Assembly: GCF_003149185.1 (NCBI RefSeq)
Contig: NZ_QGDO01000001.1
Span: 372,001-436,000, forward strand
Direction: 5' to 3'
DNA length: 64,000 nt
Source of the DNA: Sediminitomix flava
Lineage (GTDB): Bacteria; Bacteroidota; Bacteroidia; Cytophagales; Flammeovirgaceae
In this document: piece after piece, positions 1 through 8,733 of the stretch
Layout of the letters: the number at the start of each line of letters is the position of its first letter
How positions within the stretch are numbered: position 1 is the first letter of the stretch
Program-made: the position numbers and the translations under genes
The notes under the pieces: model-generated
Seen by the model: the letters and a program-made list of their open reading frames with translations, nothing else
The model's database searches: none
Told to the model about the DNA's origin: nothing

Positions 1-146
1 GCCTTGATCAGTTTTTCTTCCTTACGAGAAGCAATCAGAACCTCTGCGCCGTACTGAAGAAAGTGTTTTGCTGTAGTGTAACCAATCCCACTTCCTCCCC
101 CTGTCACAACTACTTTTTGCCCTTTGAATATATCTTTTTGAAACAT
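1..146 (-). CDS. Short-chain dehydrogenase/reductase, N-terminal fragment (cut by window edge)
   Basis: Only the first 48 or so codons lie in the window; the gene runs off the left edge. The start ATG is at 146 on the minus strand. The fragment reads as a classical Rossmann nucleotide-binding start, with VVVTGGGSGIG (the TGxxxGIG motif) near residues 12-22, followed by a second strand ending in IASR. An Arg at that point in SDRs often signals NADP(H) preference. The wording around the glycine motif resembles 2,4-dienoyl-CoA/trans-2-enoyl-CoA reductase-type SDRs, which would fit the acyl-CoA operon it belongs to. It starts 28 bp after the BKACE stop, so it is probably the next gene of the same transcript. 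The substrate cannot be decided from this piece. Confidence 0.85.
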   Translation of the reverse strand, partial: MFQKDIFKGQKVVVTGGGSGIGYTTAKHFLQYGAEVLIASRKEEKLIK

Positions 147-174
147 GGTCTAATTCACGAATTAAAAAATAGAT

Positions 175-1050
175 TTAGCTCAATTCAGCATTCTCTTTCT
201 TTGGTAAAGCAAGAATTGCCCTCGCTTCTTCAATACTTGCCGGCTCACTGTCTAACATCCTCATCATCTCAACAGCCTTTTCCACACATTCACCATTTGA
301 TTTTGACATATCGCCATTTGGCAAGTAAAGATTGTCTTCCAAACCGACACGGAAGTTTCCTCCCATGGTGATTGCAGCAGCAACCATCTTCCATTGCTTG
401 CGCCCAATGCCGACTACTTGCCAATGTGCTTCAGAAGGGATTTGCTTTACTTGATGTAAGAGGTTCTCAGTGGTAGCGGGGATACCTCCTAAGACGCCCA
501 TGATCATACTAAACTGATAAGGTGGTTTCAGGATGCCCATATCTATGAGCGGCATGGCATTGTTGAGATGCCCAGTGTCAAAACACTCCATCTCTGGCCT
601 ACAATCGGCTTCATTCATCTTTTCTAAAAAGTATTTGATGTCTTTGAAAGGGTTTGCAAAGACAAAATCATGGTAAAATTGCTTTTGCTTTTTAGAATAG
701 ATGGCATAATTCATTGATCCCATATTGAGAGCAGCCATATCGGGCTGTAGTGCAGAGATATGATGGATGCGTTCTTCTTGAGGAATGCCAATTGCACCTG
801 TAGAATAGTTGATGATCACGTTCCCACACTTGGCTTTTACGGCTTCGTCAATTTTACGGTATGATTCTACATCATAGGCAGGCATTCCGTTATCTTGACG
901 TGCATGAATGTGTAAAATACTTGCTCCCGCCTCTATCGCCCTCCTTCCTTCTTCTGCGATTTCTTCTGCAGTATATGGAATTCCTTCACATTGTGTTCTA
1001 TTCGCCAAAACACCTGTCAAAGCAGCTGAAATAATTAGTTTTTGGGGCAT
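175..1050 (-). CDS. Beta-keto acid cleavage enzyme (BKACE, 3-keto-5-aminohexanoate cleavage protein family)
   Basis: A 291-residue protein of the BKACE/DUF849 family. Known members are Zn-dependent TIM barrels that condense a beta-keto acid with acetyl-CoA to give acetoacetate and a new CoA ester. The sequence shows the family's metal-binding HIHAR motif (residues 47-51), the INYSTG segment (about 80-85), the ECFDTGH segment (about 155-161) and the late RVGLEDN motif with its Glu (about 234-240). The length is typical. It sits fourth after the TetR gene in an operon with a biotin-dependent carboxylase and an enoyl-CoA hydratase, 97 bp after the hydratase and 28 bp before an SDR. The physiological keto acid is unknown: BKACE members act on lysine-, carnitine- and other-derived keto acids. 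The family call is firm; a specific substrate would be guesswork. Confidence 0.9.
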   Translation of the reverse strand: MPQKLIISAALTGVLANRTQCEGIPYTAEEIAEEGRRAIEAGASILHIHARQDNGMPAYDVESYRKIDEAVKAKCGNVIINYSTGAIGIPQEERIHHISALQPDMAALNMGSMNYAIYSKKQKQFYHDFVFANPFKDIKYFLEKMNEADCRPEMECFDTGHLNNAMPLIDMGILKPPYQFSMIMGVLGGIPATTENLLHQVKQIPSEAHWQVVGIGRKQWKMVAAAITMGGNFRVGLEDNLYLPNGDMSKSNGECVEKAVEMMRMLDSEPASIEEARAILALPKKENAELS

Positions 1051-1104
1051 TGTATGTGTTGTTTTTTGATAAAAAGTGTCTGTTCAATACGGTATTTATT
1101 ATAA

Positions 1105-1124
1105 AGACAAGGCATGCCTTGTCT
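1105..1124. repeat. Palindromic repeat copy 1 (perfect 20-bp palindrome)
   Basis: The sequence agacaaggcatgccttgtct is a perfect 20-bp palindrome followed by ctac. It lies in the gap between the enoyl-CoA hydratase and BKACE genes. The same core recurs in the two other large gaps of this operon. It would fold into a strong hairpin in the transcript but has no T-run, so it is not a standard terminator. Confidence 0.85.
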
Positions 1125-1147
1125 CTACATGTTCTTTAATGATAAAC

Positions 1148-1969
1148 CTACTTTCCTTCCCACACGGGATTTCGTTTTTCTTTAAATGCTTGAATGCCTT
1201 CTCTTGCATCTTGGGTTTGGATGACTTTTCCCAGCATATCTCTCAAATATTTGTGTTTCTCAGACTGACTTCCTTGGCTCAGCTTTCTATAAGCTTCAAT
1301 CCCATAGTGTAGTGCAAGGGGCGCATTGGCAGAAAGCTCTTTTACAATCTTATTTACGGCTTCATCTAATTCAGATTCTTGGGCAATTTCAGTGACTAAG
1401 CCTAACTCTTTGGCTTCGTCGACAGGTAAATCATATCCTCTCAGACACCAGTCCAAGACTTTTCGTGCAGGCATGACATCCATAAGGCTCGCCATGACTT
1501 GGAAAGGGAACAATCCCCTTTTTACTTCGGGAAGCCCCAATCGGATGCCTTCTTTTGCGACAACTTGAGTTGCTCCAGCCAAAAGTAAGAAGCCACCAGC
1601 GAAGACGGGACCTTGTACCTTGACAACGCAAGGTTTGTGACACTTAAAGAAGATTTCTCCAATCAAGATTTCTTCTTCAGCAGTGGGTACCGTAGAGTCA
1701 TGTTCTTCAATGACACCCATAAATGCCTTCAAATCGGCTCCCGAACAGAAAATATCACCGTTCGCTTGTAAGAGTACCACTCGAATATCGCCATGATGAT
1801 GTGCATAAGCGAAGGCGAAGGCCATCTCATTGAGCATGACAGGGTGCAATGCGTTCTTTTTGTTTGGTCGGTTTAGCGTTACAACCAAAGCATGCTCTTT
1901 TACCGCTAGCTCAATAAAAGCGAAGTGGTAAGTAAAGATGTTTTCGGTTTGATCTTTCGTAAAATACAT
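1148..1969 (-). CDS. Enoyl-CoA hydratase/isomerase family protein (crotonase fold)
   Basis: A 273-residue crotonase-superfamily protein that presumably hydrates a 2-enoyl-CoA or a methylglutaconyl-CoA-type ester in the cytoplasm. Visible hallmarks are LNRPNKKNALHPVM near residues 33-46, the first oxyanion-hole segment FCSGADLKAF (about 73-82) and the second oxyanion segment around VQGPVFAGGFLLL. In the position usually held by the first hydratase Glu the protein has PVFAGG, so standard hydratase chemistry should not be assumed. A C-terminal EGIQAFKEKRNPVW segment matches the usual family tail. Its position beside a methylcrotonyl-type carboxylase suggests methylglutaconyl-CoA hydratase, but this is inferred from neighbours. 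The start ATG at 1969 gives a normal family length. The gaps on both sides carry palindromic repeat copies. Confidence 0.85.
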   Translation of the reverse strand: MYFTKDQTENIFTYHFAFIELAVKEHALVVTLNRPNKKNALHPVMLNEMAFAFAYAHHHGDIRVVLLQANGDIFCSGADLKAFMGVIEEHDSTVPTAEEEILIGEIFFKCHKPCVVKVQGPVFAGGFLLLAGATQVVAKEGIRLGLPEVKRGLFPFQVMASLMDVMPARKVLDWCLRGYDLPVDEAKELGLVTEIAQESELDEAVNKIVKELSANAPLALHYGIEAYRKLSQGSQSEKHKYLRDMLGKVIQTQDAREGIQAFKEKRNPVWEGK

Positions 1970-2045
1970 GTTGTCTATTGTGTTTATCTAGTCGTTGATG
2001 TTCTATTTCAGTTTTTTGTGTTGATACACTATGAATTTATGATAA

Positions 2046-2076
2046 AGACAAGGTATGACTGCGTCCGCCCTTGTCT
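2046..2076. repeat. Palindromic repeat copy 2 (interrupted)
   Basis: The outer arms agacaagg (2046-2053) and ccttgtct (2069-2076), followed by ctac, match copies 1 and 3. Here the centre is a 15-bp insert, tatgactgcgtccgc, in place of the CATG-type core. It lies between the biotin carboxylase and enoyl-CoA hydratase genes. A similar phrase (gaactgcgttcgcctc) occurs at about 4346-4361, near copy 3. Confidence 0.75.
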
Positions 2077-2125
2077 CTACGCTATGGATAGTGATTTTCC
2101 GACAGTGCGAATAGCATAAGAGCCA

Positions 2126-4105
2126 TTAATCCTCCTCAATTTTTAATAAAAGCGTACCTGCCTCTACTTGATCGTTGGTTCTGATAAATATATCCACGAT
2201 GCTTCCATCTGCATTTGCAGTGATGGTATTCTCCATCTTCATGGAAGTTAGGATTAACAAGGCTTGTCCTTTTGATACCTTGTTTCCCTTCTCTACCAAG
2301 ACCTTGATGATCTCTCCGGGCATTGGCGCGGTATACCCGCCCTTGATTTCTTCTTTCTCTGGCAAAGGCAATCGTTCCAAAAGTGTCGTTTCGGTTACTT
2401 TTGCCTTATTACTTTCTTTTACGTAATAAGTACCGCTTCCAGCTATTGTGTACGTCTTGACAGCATCATTAAGCTGTATTCTGATGCTTTGCTCATCTGT
2501 GGAAAGTACAGAAGCTTTATAGTTCTGATCATTGACCGAAATCTCAAAACCAGTTTTTACGACCTTATAATTAACTTGTACTTCGTTTTCTCCCACTTGA
2601 TACTTGTCAAATTGGGGTTGATAGAAGTTATTGCGCCATGCAGAAGGCAAGTTGCCAAGGACATGCTTCTTCTGATTTCGTTGATTCCACCTGAATAACG
2701 ATAGTGCGATCAATGGTTCAATTTGCGCAGCGCTTTGTTCTTGTTGATATTTTAAAAGAATGTCAGTTTCATCGAAAAGACGAGTGTGATATACCCCTTT
2801 TTGAATGTTTTCTTGCTCAAATAGGTATTGCAAAAAGTCTTGATTGGTAGTTAAGCCCAAGCAATCTGTTTTCCCTAAGACAAAGTGCATCTTACGAAAA
2901 GCAGCATCACGGTTTTCTGCCCAAACAACAAGCTTCGCTATCATTGGGTCATAAAATACGCTGACGTCATCGCCTGTCTGAACGGCAGATTCATAACGTA
3001 CCCCTTCCATATTTACTTCCGACCATTTCAGTACAGTACCAGTAGCGGGCAAGAAGCCTTTCATACTGTCTTCGGCATATAACCGAAGCTCTACGGCATA
3101 GCCTTTTTGAGGAATGTCATCTTGATTTGTGATTGGTAAGACTTCTCCTTGGGCTACTCTTATTTGCCACTCAACAAGATCGAGTCCTGTTATCATTTCA
3201 GTGACTGGATGCTCGACTTGTAGACGTGTATTTACTTCCAAAAAGTAGTACTGACCGTCTTCGGTAAGGATAAACTCGACAGTCCCCGCATTTACATAGT
3301 TTAATGCTTTAGCTGCGTTTATTGCAGAGCTTGCCATCTGTTCTTTCACCGATGCTGAGAGTACAGGCGAAGGTGATTCTTCTAAAATCTTCTGATGACG
3401 GCGTTGTAGTGAGCATTCTCTTTCATGAAGATGAATTGCATTGCCATGTTCATCACCAAATATTTGGAATTCGATGTGTCTAGCTCTTTCAAAATACTTT
3501 TCGAGCATCATGGCATCGTCACCGAAAGCATTTTTAGCCTCGCTTTTTGCCATTTCATAGGCACTTTGCATTTGAGACGGCTGTTCTACAATTCGCATTC
3601 CCTTTCCACCACCTCCAGCAACGGCTTTCAGTAATACGGGATAGCCAATGCTTTCTGCCTCTGTGGTGAATCGTTCTAAAGATTGGTCGTCACCTTTATA
3701 TCCCGGAATGACAGGTACATCATGTGCTTCCATCAGACTTTTTGCCAAGGATTTTGATCCCATTTGCTCGATGCTATCTGCTTTCGGTCCGATGAAAATA
3801 ATTCCGCTCTCTCTACAAGCTGTTGCAAAAGCAGCATTTTCAGCTAAAAACCCATATCCGGGATGTATCGCTGTGGCTTCAGTAGCCTTTGCCGCATTCA
3901 ATACTTTCTCAAAGTTGAGGTAAGTATCTGCGGGAGCATTTCCGCCTAATGCAATCGCCTCATCTGCCTCTTGTACAAAGAGTGCATTGGCATCTGCATC
4001 AGAAAAAATAGCAACGGAACGAATCCCCATCTTCTGACAGGCACGAATGATTCTTCGGGCAATCTCACCTCTGTTGGCAATCAGTATAGATTCAATGATA
4101 CGCAT
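2126..4105 (-). CDS. Biotin carboxylase / biotin carboxyl carrier subunit of an acyl-CoA carboxylase (methylcrotonyl-CoA type)
   Basis: About 659 residues from the chosen ATG at 4105 (an ATG at 4111 is equally possible; a further extension to a TTG at 4177 is not homologous to the family). It carries out ATP-dependent carboxylation of biotin and carries the carboxybiotin to the partner carboxyltransferase. The N-terminus ILIANRGEIARR is the biotin-carboxylase start. The ATP-grasp glycine loop GGGGKGM lies near residue 165 and FLEVNTRLQVEHPVTE near 290. The C-terminal carrier domain has the biotinylation motif SMKMENT, with the target Lys at about residue 623. The fused carboxylase-carrier layout and length are those of the alpha subunits of methylcrotonyl-, geranyl- and propionyl-CoA carboxylases. 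The carboxyltransferase gene upstream in the operon is the obvious partner. Confidence 0.93.
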   Translation of the reverse strand: MRIIESILIANRGEIARRIIRACQKMGIRSVAIFSDADANALFVQEADEAIALGGNAPADTYLNFEKVLNAAKATEATAIHPGYGFLAENAAFATACRESGIIFIGPKADSIEQMGSKSLAKSLMEAHDVPVIPGYKGDDQSLERFTTEAESIGYPVLLKAVAGGGGKGMRIVEQPSQMQSAYEMAKSEAKNAFGDDAMMLEKYFERARHIEFQIFGDEHGNAIHLHERECSLQRRHQKILEESPSPVLSASVKEQMASSAINAAKALNYVNAGTVEFILTEDGQYYFLEVNTRLQVEHPVTEMITGLDLVEWQIRVAQGEVLPITNQDDIPQKGYAVELRLYAEDSMKGFLPATGTVLKWSEVNMEGVRYESAVQTGDDVSVFYDPMIAKLVVWAENRDAAFRKMHFVLGKTDCLGLTTNQDFLQYLFEQENIQKGVYHTRLFDETDILLKYQQEQSAAQIEPLIALSLFRWNQRNQKKHVLGNLPSAWRNNFYQPQFDKYQVGENEVQVNYKVVKTGFEISVNDQNYKASVLSTDEQSIRIQLNDAVKTYTIAGSGTYYVKESNKAKVTETTLLERLPLPEKEEIKGGYTAPMPGEIIKVLVEKGNKVSKGQALLILTSMKMENTITANADGSIVDIFIRTNDQVEAGTLLLKIEED

Positions 4106-4437
4106 TGACATTGGTCTGTTGTTTTCGGGTAAAAAGTGTTTTGGTCGTAGATGATTACAAATACTCGGTGTACACAAAAAAAGTGGTTACACGTTATGTT
4201 TGACTGACTAAATTATCTGATGATAATGTCTTTGTTTATGTTGTATTTTCAGTCGTAGAGACAAGGCATGCCTTGTCTGTACCTAGTACGGTCTATCTGA
4301 TGATAATTCTCTCTATTCTAAACTTTAGAATATATTTTTCGAGTCTGAAGAACTGCGTTCGCCTCTTTCTTTCACTCATAAACTCTTAAATCACTTCGTT
4401 AACTCTAAGAATAGAGAAGGTAATCAACAAATACAGC
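4106..4437. other. 332-bp intragenic-operon gap holding repeats
   Basis: No coding sequence is seen between the carboxyltransferase and biotin carboxylase genes. The gap holds palindromic repeat copy 3 (4259-4278), a 14-bp direct repeat flanking it (4214-4227 and 4294-4307) and a further 10-bp inverted repeat (4310-4319 with 4408-4417). It is unusually long for an operon spacer in this window. Confidence 0.7.
4259..4278. repeat. Palindromic repeat copy 3 (perfect 20-bp palindrome)
   Basis: The 20-bp core is identical to copy 1 (agacaaggcatgccttgtct), with gtag before it and gtac after it, so the near-palindrome extends to 28 bp (4255-4282). It is flanked by a direct repeat, tatctgatgataat, at 4214-4227 and 4294-4307. 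This direct repeat was not seen at the other copies. Confidence 0.85.
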
Positions 4438-6036
4438 TTACATTCTGAAGACTCCATAAGAAGAAGTGCCTTCGTAGACTTTATTGTTGACGATGGCAAG
4501 GCAAAAGCCCAAATAGTTTCGGGATTCTCTCGGGTCGAGGATGCCATCATCCCAAAGTTGCCCTGTACTGTAGAAAGCTGTCGACTTCTTATCGACTTCT
4601 GCCATCATATATGCTCTCAAGTTCTTTGCTTGCTCTTCATCGTAAGGAAGTCCAGCCTTTTGTGCAGCTTCTCTTTGGATCAGTTCCATGACCCCAGCCA
4701 ATTGTTCCCCTCCCATTACCGCAATCTTTGAGTTCGGATAAGCAAAAAGGAAGTCCGGTTCGTAAGCTCTGCCATTCATTGCGTAATTCCCTGCCCCAAA
4801 TGAGGCTCCGACCATCAGCGTAATAGATGGTACTTCACTATTGGAAACCGCATTAATCAGTTTTGCACCATTTTTTATGATTCCTCCCTCTTCGTAGTCT
4901 TTTCCAACCATAAATCCAGTGATATTTTGGAGAAAGATAAGAGGTGTATTGTTCTGATTACAGAGCTGAATGAATTGTGCTCCTTTATTTGCCGATTCAG
5001 AGAATAGCACACCGTTGTTTGCGATAATCCCGACTTTATATCCGTGGATTTTGGCAAAACATGTCACTAATGTGTTTCCATAATCAGGTTTAAATTCTGA
5101 AAACTCGGAACCATCTACAATTCTCGCAATGACTTCTCTTGCATCATAAGGTACTTTAATATCTGCAGAGACAATACCGAGCAGTTCATCGATATCATAG
5201 ACCGGTTCTTGTACCTCGGTGTCTGGTACTTGTTGTGGAGTGGCATCTTTCAGTTGCGCTACAACCTCTCGGGCTAACCGGATGGCATCGTACTCGTCTT
5301 CTGCCAAATAATCGGAAACTCCAGAGACTTTAGAGTGCATGCTTGCCCCTCCTAAAGATTCATCATCTACGACTTCATTGGTCGCCATCTTGACAAGTGG
5401 AGGTCCTGCCAAAAATACCTTTGCTTTATCCTTAACGAAGATTGCATAGTCGGACATTCCAGGAACATATGCCCCACCTGCAGTGCTATTTCCGAAGACT
5501 ACCGAGATATTTGGGATGCCTTTCTTGGAACGACGGGTTATGTCACGGAAACTTGCGCCTCCGTAATTGAAAATTCTTTCTTGCTCAGGAAGATGAGCAC
5601 CCGCGGACTCCACCAAGTTGACAACAGGAAGGTGATGTTTCTCTGCGATCTCCCCCAAACGTAAACTTTTATTGAGTGTAGCGTAATCTACTGCTCCACC
5701 TTTCAAAGTTCCAATGTTTGAAATGACCATGCAGAGTTTCCCACACACGAGTCCAACTCCTCCAACGGTCGTACCGCCAACACCTAAGCCTTTTCCTCCT
5801 AAACCAACAAGTGGCATCAGTTCGAGAAAGGGAGAATCTTGGTCTAGAAGAAGTTCTACACGTTCACGAGCGAGTAATTTGCCTTTACTTCTCGCCTTGA
5901 GGATGTGTTTTTCCTTTCCTTGGAATCGACTTTTCTCCATTTTAAGGTTCAAGTCGTTCAAGAGGACTGACATTTCCTCATAATTCTTTTGATAAGCCTC
6001 TGAGTGCTTGTTTACTTGGGTTTGGAATAGACGCAT
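4438..6036 (-). CDS. Acyl-CoA carboxylase carboxyltransferase subunit (methylcrotonoyl-CoA carboxylase beta type)
   Basis: A 532-residue carboxyltransferase that moves the carboxyl group from biotin to an acyl-CoA. The N-terminal region LLARERVELLLDQDSPFLEL and the SAGAHLPEQ segment are family signatures. The oxyanion segments GNSTAGGAYVPGMSDY and GASFGAGNYAMNGRAY are intact. The closing block VMGGEQLAGV, then LWDDGILDPRESR and a final FGVFRM-like GVFRM end, match methylcrotonyl/geranyl-CoA carboxylases better than propionyl-CoA carboxylases. It is the first structural gene after the TetR regulator (46-bp gap) and is followed by the alpha subunit after a repeat-filled gap. Leucine/isovalerate catabolism is the most economical role, but isovaleryl-CoA dehydrogenase and HMG-CoA lyase genes are not in this window. 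Confidence 0.92.
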   Translation of the reverse strand: MRLFQTQVNKHSEAYQKNYEEMSVLLNDLNLKMEKSRFQGKEKHILKARSKGKLLARERVELLLDQDSPFLELMPLVGLGGKGLGVGGTTVGGVGLVCGKLCMVISNIGTLKGGAVDYATLNKSLRLGEIAEKHHLPVVNLVESAGAHLPEQERIFNYGGASFRDITRRSKKGIPNISVVFGNSTAGGAYVPGMSDYAIFVKDKAKVFLAGPPLVKMATNEVVDDESLGGASMHSKVSGVSDYLAEDEYDAIRLAREVVAQLKDATPQQVPDTEVQEPVYDIDELLGIVSADIKVPYDAREVIARIVDGSEFSEFKPDYGNTLVTCFAKIHGYKVGIIANNGVLFSESANKGAQFIQLCNQNNTPLIFLQNITGFMVGKDYEEGGIIKNGAKLINAVSNSEVPSITLMVGASFGAGNYAMNGRAYEPDFLFAYPNSKIAVMGGEQLAGVMELIQREAAQKAGLPYDEEQAKNLRAYMMAEVDKKSTAFYSTGQLWDDGILDPRESRNYLGFCLAIVNNKVYEGTSSYGVFRM

Positions 6037-6082
6037 AGTCTTTGGGTGTTCCTAAATAATCTATGTAGAAAAAGTTTTACTG

Positions 6083-6709
6083 CTATTTCAACAATGCTCG
6101 CTCAAAATTCTCTCTTCCTTTGTCTGTAAGATAAGGTTTGAACATATCCCACATTGCTTTTCGGACTTCAAGCTCCCATGCCTGTTCTGAAGGGGTGATG
6201 AATTCTTGTACTGGCCAGTGGAAGAGTGTCATCCACACGAGTTTGGCTAGTCTTTCATACTGTCCTTCTTCTTGTTCCGCGATCATATTCCCTGATCCCA
6301 CCGAATAATCGAACATTGCTTTGATATATGCGATGTGTTCATGGGCGTACTTGCTTTGTAGCTTCCCTAATTCGGGAAATTGACGAAACAAAGACATGGT
6401 ATCTAGGATGACGAACTTATATTTCTCGGTCAGACCGATGATCATAAGAGACTGACGGTTGATGACTTCAAAAGATGGAATGGCTTGTACTTCCGATAAA
6501 GCAGTTTTGCGTTCATTTTCCATCTGTACGAAGAGCATCTCGACAATCACGTTTTTATTCTTGAAATGATAAGCGAGATTGCCGGGACTCAGCCCTGCTT
6601 CCTCAGAAATATCTCGCATTGTGACTCCACCGACTCCTTTTGTATTAAAAAGCTCTAATGCCGCATCTAAAATCCTTTCTTTCGTGCTCAATTTCTTCGG
6701 TGCTGTCAT
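6083..6709 (-). CDS. TetR/AcrR-family transcriptional regulator
   Basis: A 208-residue protein with an N-terminal TetR helix-turn-helix: STKERILDAALELFNTKGVGGVTMRDISEEAGLSPGNLAYHF covers about residues 7-50 when read in pieces, including the hallmark 'GNLAYHFKNK' turn. The remainder is a helical ligand-binding domain without a recognisable subfamily signature. It stands at the head of the acyl-CoA operon, 46 bp before the carboxyltransferase gene, so it is probably an autoregulated repressor responding to an acyl-CoA or related acid. That ligand is inferred from context only. Confidence 0.9.
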   Translation of the reverse strand: MTAPKKLSTKERILDAALELFNTKGVGGVTMRDISEEAGLSPGNLAYHFKNKNVIVEMLFVQMENERKTALSEVQAIPSFEVINRQSLMIIGLTEKYKFVILDTMSLFRQFPELGKLQSKYAHEHIAYIKAMFDYSVGSGNMIAEQEEGQYERLAKLVWMTLFHWPVQEFITPSEQAWELEVRKAMWDMFKPYLTDKGRENFERALLK

Positions 6710-7163: not shown

Positions 7164-7197
7164 ATTAAAGTGGTCTATCGCTTGACCACTTTAATTT
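7162..7197. terminator. Shared hairpin at the convergent gene ends
   Basis: The arms 7162-7175 and 7184-7197 are 14-bp perfect complements with an 8-nt loop. The hairpin overlaps the stop codons of both convergent genes (7163 plus strand, 7191 minus strand). There is no long T-run, so it may stabilise or terminate only weakly. Confidence 0.55.
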
Positions 7198-8036
7198 GTC
7201 ACTTTTTCTTCTTTTGACTTCAAAGGATTATTCCCCTCAAAATTTGCCATTGAATCGTAAATTCCCAACCCTCTTCCGATCAATAAGTCAAACCATCTTA
7301 CAGGAAGAATTCCCTTGATAAAAGGTGATAACCTATTCATAAATGGCATTCGTACAAATATTTTATTCTTACCAACTCCCTTAACAATTTGTTTCGCAAC
7401 TTCTTCTGCTGTGAGTGTTGGAGTTAAGAAATTTGATTTAAAGCCTGTAAACATTGTGGTATTTACGTGTCCTGGTTGAACAGTAGTCACTTTTATATTT
7501 GTCTTTAGCTGTTCCATTTCCAAGCGCAAAGACTCAGACCAACCTGTACTTGCCCACTTCGATGCACAATACACACTCATTTGAGGGCATGACACCAAAC
7601 CAGCTATTGAAGTTATATTTACAATGTGTCCTTGCTTTCGTTCAATCATTCTTGGTAATAATGCAGAAGCCACATACATACTCCCTTTGGCATTTACATC
7701 CATCAATAAGTCTATTTCCTCTGTCTGCATTTCATGAAAGTATTTTCCAATCATGACGCCCGCATTATTGAAAAGAATATCGATATGAATATCTTCCTCA
7801 GCTAATTGTTGTGCAATTTCTTTTACTTCGTTAGGATTAGAAATATCAACAACTTCTCCCCTCAGTTCACAATGAGTTGGTTGAAACTCATGATAAAGTC
7901 GGTGAACTTGTGTTAAATCTTTATCTAAATAAATGATTGATTTAGCCTTCTGAATTAGCCCTTGAATAAGTAAAGCTTTCCCAATTCCTGCACATGCACC
8001 AGTAATCAGAATGGTTTTATCTTTGAGTTTTGTCAT
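7191..8036 (-). CDS. SDR-family NAD(P)-dependent oxidoreductase
   Basis: 281 residues from the ATG at 8036. A TTG ten codons further upstream would overlap the TatD-like gene and was not used. It is a classical SDR with the cofactor motif TGACAGIG (about residues 11-18), NNAG near 90, the active-site Ser in NITSIAG, and the YCASKWA motif supplying the catalytic Tyr and Lys (about residues 155-159). The C-terminal part has a hydrophobic segment, ILPVRWFDLLIG, like SDRs that associate with membranes and act on lipids or acyl-CoAs. The substrate is unknown. It lies 16 bp after the TatD-like gene and is probably cotranscribed with it. Confidence 0.88.
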   Translation of the reverse strand: MTKLKDKTILITGACAGIGKALLIQGLIQKAKSIIYLDKDLTQVHRLYHEFQPTHCELRGEVVDISNPNEVKEIAQQLAEEDIHIDILFNNAGVMIGKYFHEMQTEEIDLLMDVNAKGSMYVASALLPRMIERKQGHIVNITSIAGLVSCPQMSVYCASKWASTGWSESLRLEMEQLKTNIKVTTVQPGHVNTTMFTGFKSNFLTPTLTAEEVAKQIVKGVGKNKIFVRMPFMNRLSPFIKGILPVRWFDLLIGRGLGIYDSMANFEGNNPLKSKEEKVTN

Positions 8037-8052
8037 AACTTTAAAAAAATGA

Positions 8053-8733
8053 TTAAGACAAGTCAAAAAGTCTTTTAAAAGTGATGTAAATATTTTCTTT
8101 CAGTTCCTCAAGTTCTATCCTATGTATTTGAGCAACCTGATTATAAATGTCTTTGATTTCGTACTTTTCTTGATCGTCAGTTTCAAGAAAGAATAATTCG
8201 CCTTTCAACTCTCTTATGGTTCTAAATGCTTTTGTTTTTTCATTAAATAAAAAAGCACCAAAAGAAGGAATAATACCTTTTTGAATGCATTGTTTAGCTA
8301 TTTGAATATTGGCATTAAAACCGTGAATAATCCAAGGCATTTGAGCTTTTGAAGACTTTCTTATTTCTAAAATTTCAGAATAAGCCCTTACACAATGAAT
8401 AATTAATGGCTTTTTAAGTTCTTCTGAAAGTTCAATATGCTTCAAAAATATCTCTTTTTGAAAATCTAAAGAAACTTCAATTGCTTTATCTAATCCACTT
8501 TCACCAATAGCCAACAGATCACTTTCATTTTCAATACTTTTTAGAAATTCGTTCCAATTGACCTTTTCTACTTTGTTATAATCCCAAGGATGCCAACCAA
8601 CTGAAAAAGGTATTTCAAAGCTATTTTGCTCAAAATCTTGAATGAAAATATTTTGAATACTTATCTGTTCTGCTCCTCTTTTTCCATTAAAATGTGTGTG
8701 GATATCTACAAAAGGATAATTGGTTTCTGTCAA
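8053..8733 (-). CDS. TatD-family metal-dependent hydrolase (putative DNase), TTG start
   Basis: A 226-residue TatD-like TIM-barrel hydrolase. Metal-binding signatures are FVDIHTH right at the N-terminus (residues 8-14), SVGWHPWD, IGESGLD, LIIHCVRA and WIIHGFNAN, with a late ETDD segment. The protein is shorter than typical TatD (about 260), mainly at the C-terminus. The metal motif begins eight residues in, the in-frame stop TAG is only 6 bp upstream, and no ATG lies between, so the start must be the TTG at 8733. It is followed closely by an SDR gene. A role in DNA or small-molecule hydrolysis is known for the family; the real substrate here is undetermined. Confidence 0.85.
   Translation of the reverse strand: MTETNYPFVDIHTHFNGKRGAEQISIQNIFIQDFEQNSFEIPFSVGWHPWDYNKVEKVNWNEFLKSIENESDLLAIGESGLDKAIEVSLDFQKEIFLKHIELSEELKKPLIIHCVRAYSEILEIRKSSKAQMPWIIHGFNANIQIAKQCIQKGIIPSFGAFLFNEKTKAFRTIRELKGELFFLETDDQEKYEIKDIYNQVAQIHRIELEELKENIYITFKRLFDLS

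Follow-up and report, generated by a model that had tools for sequence, protein, structure and literature searches.

A Sediminitomix flava operon that joins a geranyl-CoA-carboxylase-type carboxyltransferase to a BKACE in the position of AtuA

Introduction

At the left edge of a 64,000-nucleotide stretch of Sediminitomix flava DNA (the window; C1:372001-436000, where C1 is NZ_QGDO01000001.1, in a 6.6 Mb genome rated 99.4% complete), a TetR-family regulator gene leads a run that encodes a carboxylase pair, a crotonase-fold protein, a BKACE (beta-keto acid cleavage enzyme) and a short-chain dehydrogenase/reductase (SDR). The description that suits this operon best is a novel version of the Atu-type carboxylation pathway in which a BKACE takes the position of AtuA; it suggests a route for terpenoid or isoprenoid acids in Bacteroidota and Chloroflexota.

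To our knowledge, a physiological role has yet to be assigned to many subfamilies of BKACE, and the reaction of AtuA has been named and is not biochemically settled. One carboxylase lineage that carries either AtuA or a BKACE offers a concrete, testable function for this BKACE subfamily, and it makes a question of terpene breakdown testable, that is, whether the lyase releases a free beta-keto acid, usable by a BKACE, or a 3-oxoacyl-CoA, usable by a thiolase. The Pseudomonas Atu operon consists of atuR and atuABCDEFGH, as laid out in part of PMC4847356. According to passages of PMC4673880, alpha,beta-unsaturated acids are the substrates of carboxylases of the lineage of geranyl-CoA carboxylase (GCC) and methylcrotonyl-CoA carboxylase (MCC), which act at the gamma carbon; MCC has Phe191 after a three-residue insertion, GCC has Gly162 with the insertion absent, and exchange of this residue alters substrate preference. 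BKACEs take acetyl-CoA and a beta-keto acid as substrates (portions of PMC4922564 and PMC6365646).

Results

Gene content of the locus

All genes that a preliminary description of this DNA had named for the left edge are present as open frames, co-directional on the minus strand, and the run from TetR to SDR was assigned by Pfam throughout. Transcription proceeds from the TetR gene through the carboxyltransferase (CT), the biotin carboxylase with biotin carrier (BC-BCCP), the crotonase, the BKACE and the SDR, and then, left of the window, through a 590-aa acyl-CoA dehydrogenase (ACAD), an AMP-ligase and an ACAD with an SCP2 domain. Positions below are those of the window unless C1 is given.

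6083..6709, minus strand: TetR-family regulator, 208 aa, first gene of the run (PF00440, 53 bits; PF13972, 49 bits)
4438..6036, minus strand: CT (beta subunit), 532 aa, of predicted geranyl-CoA-carboxylase type (Pfam Carboxyl_trans; signature residues; CT tree)
2126..4111, minus strand: BC-BCCP (alpha subunit; Pfam, three biotin carboxylase domains and Biotin_lipoyl); started at TTG 4177 in the list of open reading frames, with a probable ATG (MSMRII...) at about 4111
1148..1969, minus strand: crotonase-fold protein, 273 aa, proposed 3-substituted-glutaconyl-CoA hydratase (Pfam ECH_1)
175..1050, minus strand: BKACE, 291 aa (PF05853, 326 bits against a cut-off of 24.8)
1..146, on to C1:371376, minus strand: SDR, 256 aa, of which only the start lies in the window (Pfam adh_short_C2)
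C1:369245-371017, minus strand, left of the window: ACAD, 590 aa (above the NCBIfam cut-off of a FadE model)
C1:367497-369218, minus strand, left of the window: AMP-ligase, 573 aa (Pfam)
C1:365959-367557, minus strand, left of the window: ACAD with C-terminal SCP2 domain, 532 aa (Pfam)

A scan for promoters and terminators gave no more than chance would, with 50 promoter-like sites where 43.0 (sd 7.1) were expected and 6 terminator-like sites against 10.3. Extension to the left bore out the preliminary description, which had seen neither HMG-CoA lyase (HMGL) nor isovaleryl-CoA dehydrogenase (IVD) with these genes: no HMGL and no recognisable IVD lies beyond the edge, the two operon ACADs being 31-34% identical to four annotated IVDs (the first of these shares 76-81% identity with the other three). 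Two other dehydrogenases of the genome, at 39-42% identity to the same set, are its best IVD candidates; the NCBIfam model named isovaleryl-CoA dehydrogenase may, we assume, be AidB-like. In the crotonase, the first of the glutamates that we take to be catalytic in classical crotonases is absent and the second retained, a pattern found also in the enoyl-CoA hydratases (ECHs) of HMGL- and AtuA-type operons, including five AtuA-operon ECHs that are 24.6-28.2% identical to it.

Conservation in relatives

Relatives of the window BKACE were taken as the best 80 of 151 loci, mostly from metagenome-assembled genomes (MAGs); by record title, 59 belong to Bacteroidota (Saprospiraceae, Lewinella, Chitinophagales, Crocinitomicaceae, Aquimarina and others) and 21 to Chloroflexota. 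Among Bacteroidota loci whose flank upstream of the BKACE reaches 6.5 kb or more, genes for CT (31/36), BC (32/36), ECH (28/36) and TetR (27/36) recur, and CT-BC-ECH-BKACE stand on one strand in 26 of the 36, a conserved neighbourhood that agrees with the operon proposed in the preliminary description. Where at least 9 kb was available downstream, 25 of 33 Bacteroidota loci have the SDR (at least 50% identity), 25 the SCP2-type ACAD, 20 the ligase and 16 the 590-aa ACAD. The gene grouping exceeds chance. A search of the literature by title and abstract opening found no description of a BKACE in such an operon.

Carboxyltransferase type and phylogeny

In alignment, the window CT has Gly at the position of MCC Phe191 and the three-residue insertion is absent, in accord with both published GCC guidelines. 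The same is true of all 47 BKACE-linked CTs aligned (38 from Bacteroidota, the window included, and 9 from Chloroflexota), each with Gly and with none of the three insertion columns filled. An N-terminal segment (a helix of about 30 residues) that separates GCC and MCC from propionyl-CoA carboxylase is probably present, the match to 5ikl beginning at residue 5 of the window protein and residue 4 of the chain.

For comparison, we examined 17 plasmid regions around CT relatives, picked from 437 matching records. AtuA is encoded in eight of them. In seven the gene flanks the carboxylase run or is part of it, two of these regions (L135 and L191) being near-identical; in L134 it lies about 7 kb off, behind a transposase gene. 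HMGL together with an annotated IVD occurs in four regions and a CoA ester lyase in two (about 6 kb off in L186), while one region has no AtuA, HMGL or CoA ester lyase and two records are unannotated. The AtuA-linked CTs have Gly in 7/8 and Ala in 1/8, with the insertion in 0/8; Phe with the insertion (3/3 columns) is found in 4/4 HMGL-linked CTs, and Phe with the insertion also in 2/2 CTs from the CoA-ester-lyase regions. The S. flava genome has, on C7, a second CT of the same lineage with Phe and the insertion, and 26 of the 32 other genomes that were searched have such a CT too (21 from Bacteroidota and 5 from Chloroflexota; the Phe signature was scored across 30 loci). Judged by these residues, the window CT is of the geranyl-CoA-carboxylase type and not of the methylcrotonyl type given in the preliminary description, the MCC signature being carried by the separate CT on C7. 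Because of the Gly-type signature and the MCC-like enzyme elsewhere in the genome, the operon carboxylase should accept, and prefer, a substrate larger than 3-methylcrotonyl-CoA.

A tree of 31 CTs places all 24 BKACE- and AtuA-linked CTs together, against the set of HMGL-linked, CoA-ester-lyase and own MCC-type CTs (support 100/99.9), and a quick tree of 67 CTs agrees with it. Actinobacterial AtuA-linked CTs form the sister group of the Bacteroidota BKACE-linked CTs (97/92), and the Chloroflexota BKACE-linked CTs branch outside these two groups. Rejection of a single clade for all BKACE-linked CTs (p-AU 0.0009) makes it appear that one CT lineage is linked alternately to BKACE and to AtuA.

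One region of the plasmid set, L193:2872-13779 of Rhizobium sp. WL3, combines a Phe-type CT with a branched-chain keto-acid dehydrogenase complex, a MaoC hydratase and a CoA ester lyase. The last stands where an HMG-CoA lyase would be expected, possibly another lyase substitution.

Distribution of AtuA and HMG-CoA lyase

No match to AtuA (PF07287) was found in any of 33 genomes with the BKACE operon (our own genome and 32 of those behind the 80 loci). Across a sample of the phylum, AtuA is present in 151 of 395 genomes, mostly away from a CT of this kind: among 20 short flanks (L147-L166), a neighbouring CT was seen in one (L158, 43% identity). Many Bacteroidota AtuA-family genes may thus serve another role, and because they lie mostly away from any such CT, mutual exclusion of AtuA and BKACE is suggestive only. 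Thiolase genes occur in 4/80 BKACE loci, whereas four of the eight AtuA-linked regions have one that scores at least 150 bits, a fifth has one of 52 bits, and 2/4 HMGL-linked regions have one; the difference suits a BKACE that acts where thiolase would, although these counts come from flanks of unmatched length.

A tblastn search with nine queries found no HMGL, AtuA or CitE-type lyase near the BKACE in the 80 loci, the control regions being positive. The HMGL of the S. flava genome is unlinked (C3:922886-923764); six of its seven PDB matches are HMGL sequences, and HMGL is its best NCBIfam family, yet below the cut-off (201 against 246 bits). An HMGL-sized match to PF00682 is present in 28 of the 33 genomes, where HMGL-sized refers to score and frame length (60-153 bits, 284-381 aa) and the NCBIfam and PDB check covers the own-genome protein only. 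In G001, a 5.0 Mb MAG with the operon, no HMGL-sized gene and no MCC-type CT was found, for which MAG gaps can account; its sister G003 is without the former and has the latter, and G021 and G030 have an HMGL-sized gene and no match to an MCC-type CT, so that the pattern is not one-sided. The preliminary description had placed BKACE and SDR in the operon instead of HMG-CoA lyase, which stands for the operon and fails for the genome, where an unlinked HMGL is encoded. It is better stated that the BKACE occupies the place where related operons carry AtuA.

The BKACE

The window BKACE is the sole BKACE match in the genome. Four NCBIfam BKACE models matched it, each with a score under the cut-off of the model (282 against 382 bits for Kce), and on these scores it was rejected as a lysine-fermentation Kce, a 3-oxoadipate or a dioxohexanoate enzyme. 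Alignment to Kce (2y7d) shows H46, H48, S82, E143, R226, E230 and D231 (Kce numbering) kept in 75 of 75 BKACEs. We take H46, H48 and E230 to be zinc ligands and S82, E143, R226 and D231 to be catalytic; on this alignment the window BKACE retains both sets, and the active-site comparison sustains its naming as a BKACE in the preliminary description. At the position of Kce E14, presumably the binder of the substrate amino group, the window BKACE has Leu, and Ala, Leu or Val occur across the family aligned; a hydrophobic residue here fits a hydrophobic keto acid substrate.

In the phylum sample a BKACE match is found in 18 of 395 genomes, in 16 of them above the cut-off; six such loci were set against the window BKACE, five of them matching at 28-32% identity and one not at all. 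A quick tree groups the BKACEs of the window, L019, L021 and L026 with Chloroflexota BKACEs (17-row branch, SH-aLRT 92), apart from other Bacteroidota BKACEs, whereas the window CT groups with Bacteroidota CTs. Because the two genes group in this different manner, the sequences suggest that the gene in the BKACE/AtuA slot has been swapped at least twice, as though the reaction were what is required.

Discussion

The S. flava operon resembles Atu in that a GCC-type carboxylase pair, crotonase, ACAD, SDR, acyl-CoA synthase-type ligase and regulator gene form one run, and in that its CT shares a clade with AtuA-linked CTs; this comparison was made with the AtuA-linked plasmid regions and the 5ikl chain rather than with the Pseudomonas operon itself. 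It differs from Atu in its crotonase, which is probably of another subfamily, and in AtuA, which is absent from the operon, was not found in the genome and in whose place the BKACE stands. With Liu it shares a carboxylase of the MCC/GCC lineage, a crotonase and an acyl-CoA dehydrogenase, but the window CT has Gly instead of Phe with the insertion, and there is no linked HMGL and no recognisable IVD. The BKACE has the Pfam family and catalytic residues of Kce, deoxyribonate and other keto-acid BKACEs; unlike the known members, it is below four NCBIfam cut-offs, is hydrophobic at Kce E14 and has a biotin carboxylase pair as genomic partner.

We give about an even chance to the reading that the operon is an Atu-type variant for a 3-methyl-branched acyl-CoA, in which an unlinked HMGL acts and then the BKACE in the AtuA position. 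The acid would be activated by the AMP-ligase, the acyl-CoA dehydrogenase would introduce the alpha,beta-unsaturation, the GCC-type carboxylase would carboxylate the gamma (methyl) carbon of the 3-methyl-branched enoyl-CoA, and the crotonase would hydrate the product to 3-hydroxy-3-R-glutaryl-CoA. In HMG-CoA chemistry the CoA arm departs as acetyl-CoA, so that an HMGL encoded elsewhere would yield acetyl-CoA and, as the other product, a free beta-keto acid, R-CO-CH2-COO-. The BKACE would consume exactly those two products to give R-CO-CoA and acetoacetate; R-CO-CoA would go back into beta-oxidation, and the BKACE would be the counterpart of the thiolase that acts after AtuA in the classical pathway. 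Two CoA_trans-family genes in the genome, candidate SCOT genes, might serve to activate the acetoacetate, and we infer some part in the route for the SDR. The AMP-ligase, aldehyde dehydrogenases and SCP2, with CoA-transferase III and FMO in single loci, also count in favour of such a pathway. The preliminary description had proposed a variant route for a branched-chain or terpenoid-like acid with its keto acid processed by the BKACE; the Gly-type CT and the CT tree favour the terpenoid-like acid. Gene content and order, the GCC signature, the intact BKACE residues, the alternation of BKACE and AtuA and the unlinked HMGL come directly from the sequences, while the substrate, the direction of the lyase step and the keto acid taken by the BKACE are what we infer. 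A precedent for an HMGL acting in trans is Pseudomonas LiuE, which is listed as cleaving the isohexenyl analogue too (in the part of PMC4097962 on this enzyme).

Several observations weigh against the two-enzyme pathway. The retro-aldol lyase is absent from the operon, and an HMGL-sized gene is missing in 5 of the 33 genomes (G001, G003, G009, G015 with fragments only, and G029), all of them MAGs. The isohexenyl cleavage products listed in that part of PMC4097962 are 3-oxoacyl-CoA and acetate, not acetyl-CoA and a free keto acid, so that the proposal is weakest where the direction of cleavage is concerned. The overall similarity of the CT is higher to AccD1 and MCC structures, the GCC structure ranking sixth, and identity between the crotonase and hydratases encoded in operons of the AtuA and HMGL types is just 21.5-28.2%. 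In Chloroflexota a CT lies near the BKACE in 7 of 14 loci with at least 4.5 kb downstream (9/21 overall), and no crotonase of the window type was found in the Chloroflexota loci. Finally, AtuA is absent from 244 of the 395 phylum genomes, so that its absence from all 33 operon-bearing genomes may partly reflect lineage.

The absence of a linked lyase might also mean that the BKACE itself cleaves the chain, a retro-aldol step and an acyl/CoA exchange following each other in one active site to give R-CO-CoA and acetoacetate without HMGL, which we regard as unlikely. 3-Hydroxy-3-R-glutaryl-CoA is formally the aldol adduct of the two canonical BKACE substrates, a beta-keto acid and acetyl-CoA; the BKACE lies where related operons have AtuA, the proposed lyase, and a single CT lineage carries the two in alternation; HMGL, AtuA and CitE queries had no match in the 80 loci; and G001 is without an MCC-type CT and an HMGL-sized gene. 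We know of no BKACE that performs a retro-aldol reaction, however, an HMGL-sized gene is at hand in 28/33 genomes, and G001 is a MAG whose sister G003, also without HMGL, has an MCC-type CT. The genome-wide presence of HMGL and Phe-type CT does not discriminate between one enzyme and two. If one enzyme did suffice, the BKACE would stand in for both AtuA and thiolase; that its direct action on 3-hydroxy-3-alkylglutaryl-CoA constitutes a new HMG-CoA-lyase-like reaction type and an evolutionary substitute for AtuA we consider quite improbable.

In a different chemistry, the carboxylase would act on another enoyl-CoA (for instance that of a cyclic acid, a long acid or the side-chain acid of a sterol), and the BKACE would cleave a beta-keto acid supplied by the SDR. 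In its favour are the SDR, which adjoins the BKACE here and is present at 50% identity or more in 25/33 Bacteroidota loci with enough flank, the divergent crotonase and the SCP2 domain of the second dehydrogenase. SDR with BKACE is, moreover, the arrangement of deoxyribonate oxidation in the portion of PMC6365646 that treats it. Against it, in this lineage the carbon that the carboxylase works on is the gamma carbon of an alpha,beta-unsaturated acid (PMC4673880), and with a 3-methyl substrate the hydration that follows gives a tertiary alcohol, beyond oxidation by an SDR; we think this chemistry unlikely. Ordinary degradation of leucine or isovalerate by a Liu pathway, with the BKACE as a side enzyme, is in our judgement very improbable. 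In its favour, the CT falls within the MCC/GCC lineage and has good scores against MCC structures, lyase and BKACE together would for R = CH3 have the net result of the HMG-CoA lyase reaction, and no dehydrogenase of the genome exceeds about 42% identity to the four annotated IVDs; but the operon CT is Gly-type, a separate CT with Phe and the insertion is encoded on C7 and in 26/32 other genomes searched, the HMGL is unlinked, and the operon ACADs, at 31-34% to annotated IVDs, are below two other genome dehydrogenases at 39-42%.

Additional genes at related loci

In Chloroflexota, the genes beside the BKACE include one for an AMP-binding ligase that looks PaaK-like (16 loci) and those of an ABC transporter of the type for branched-chain amino acids, which Pfam confirmed in the one locus checked (L030). 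In Bacteroidota, a second SDR (26 loci; one checked) and an aldehyde dehydrogenase (15 loci; two checked) recur, and L019 adds FMO-like, thiolase, FadB-like and CoA-transferase III genes, the same families being present in L026 by clustering. In the window itself an SDR-like open reading frame lies at 7191-8066 on the minus strand, about 480 bp upstream of the TetR gene; as several relatives (Aquimarina loci) have a second SDR in the cluster, it may share the regulon.

A nitronate-monooxygenase-family gene is found in five BKACE loci (L047, L050, L051, L060 and L093; one Pfam-checked) and is annotated near an Achromobacter AtuA operon too (L185:1029-2003), which hints at a common accessory step. 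Luciferase-like monooxygenase and APH-type phosphotransferase genes lie between CT and BC in some Chloroflexota loci (L032, L034, L040 and others), and a phosphotransferase-family gene is likewise annotated in Rhodococcus AtuA operons. Within one BKACE cluster, a fatty-acid-hydroxylase/CDGSH fusion gene (L049:13158-14243) possibly encodes an oxygenase for the same substrate.

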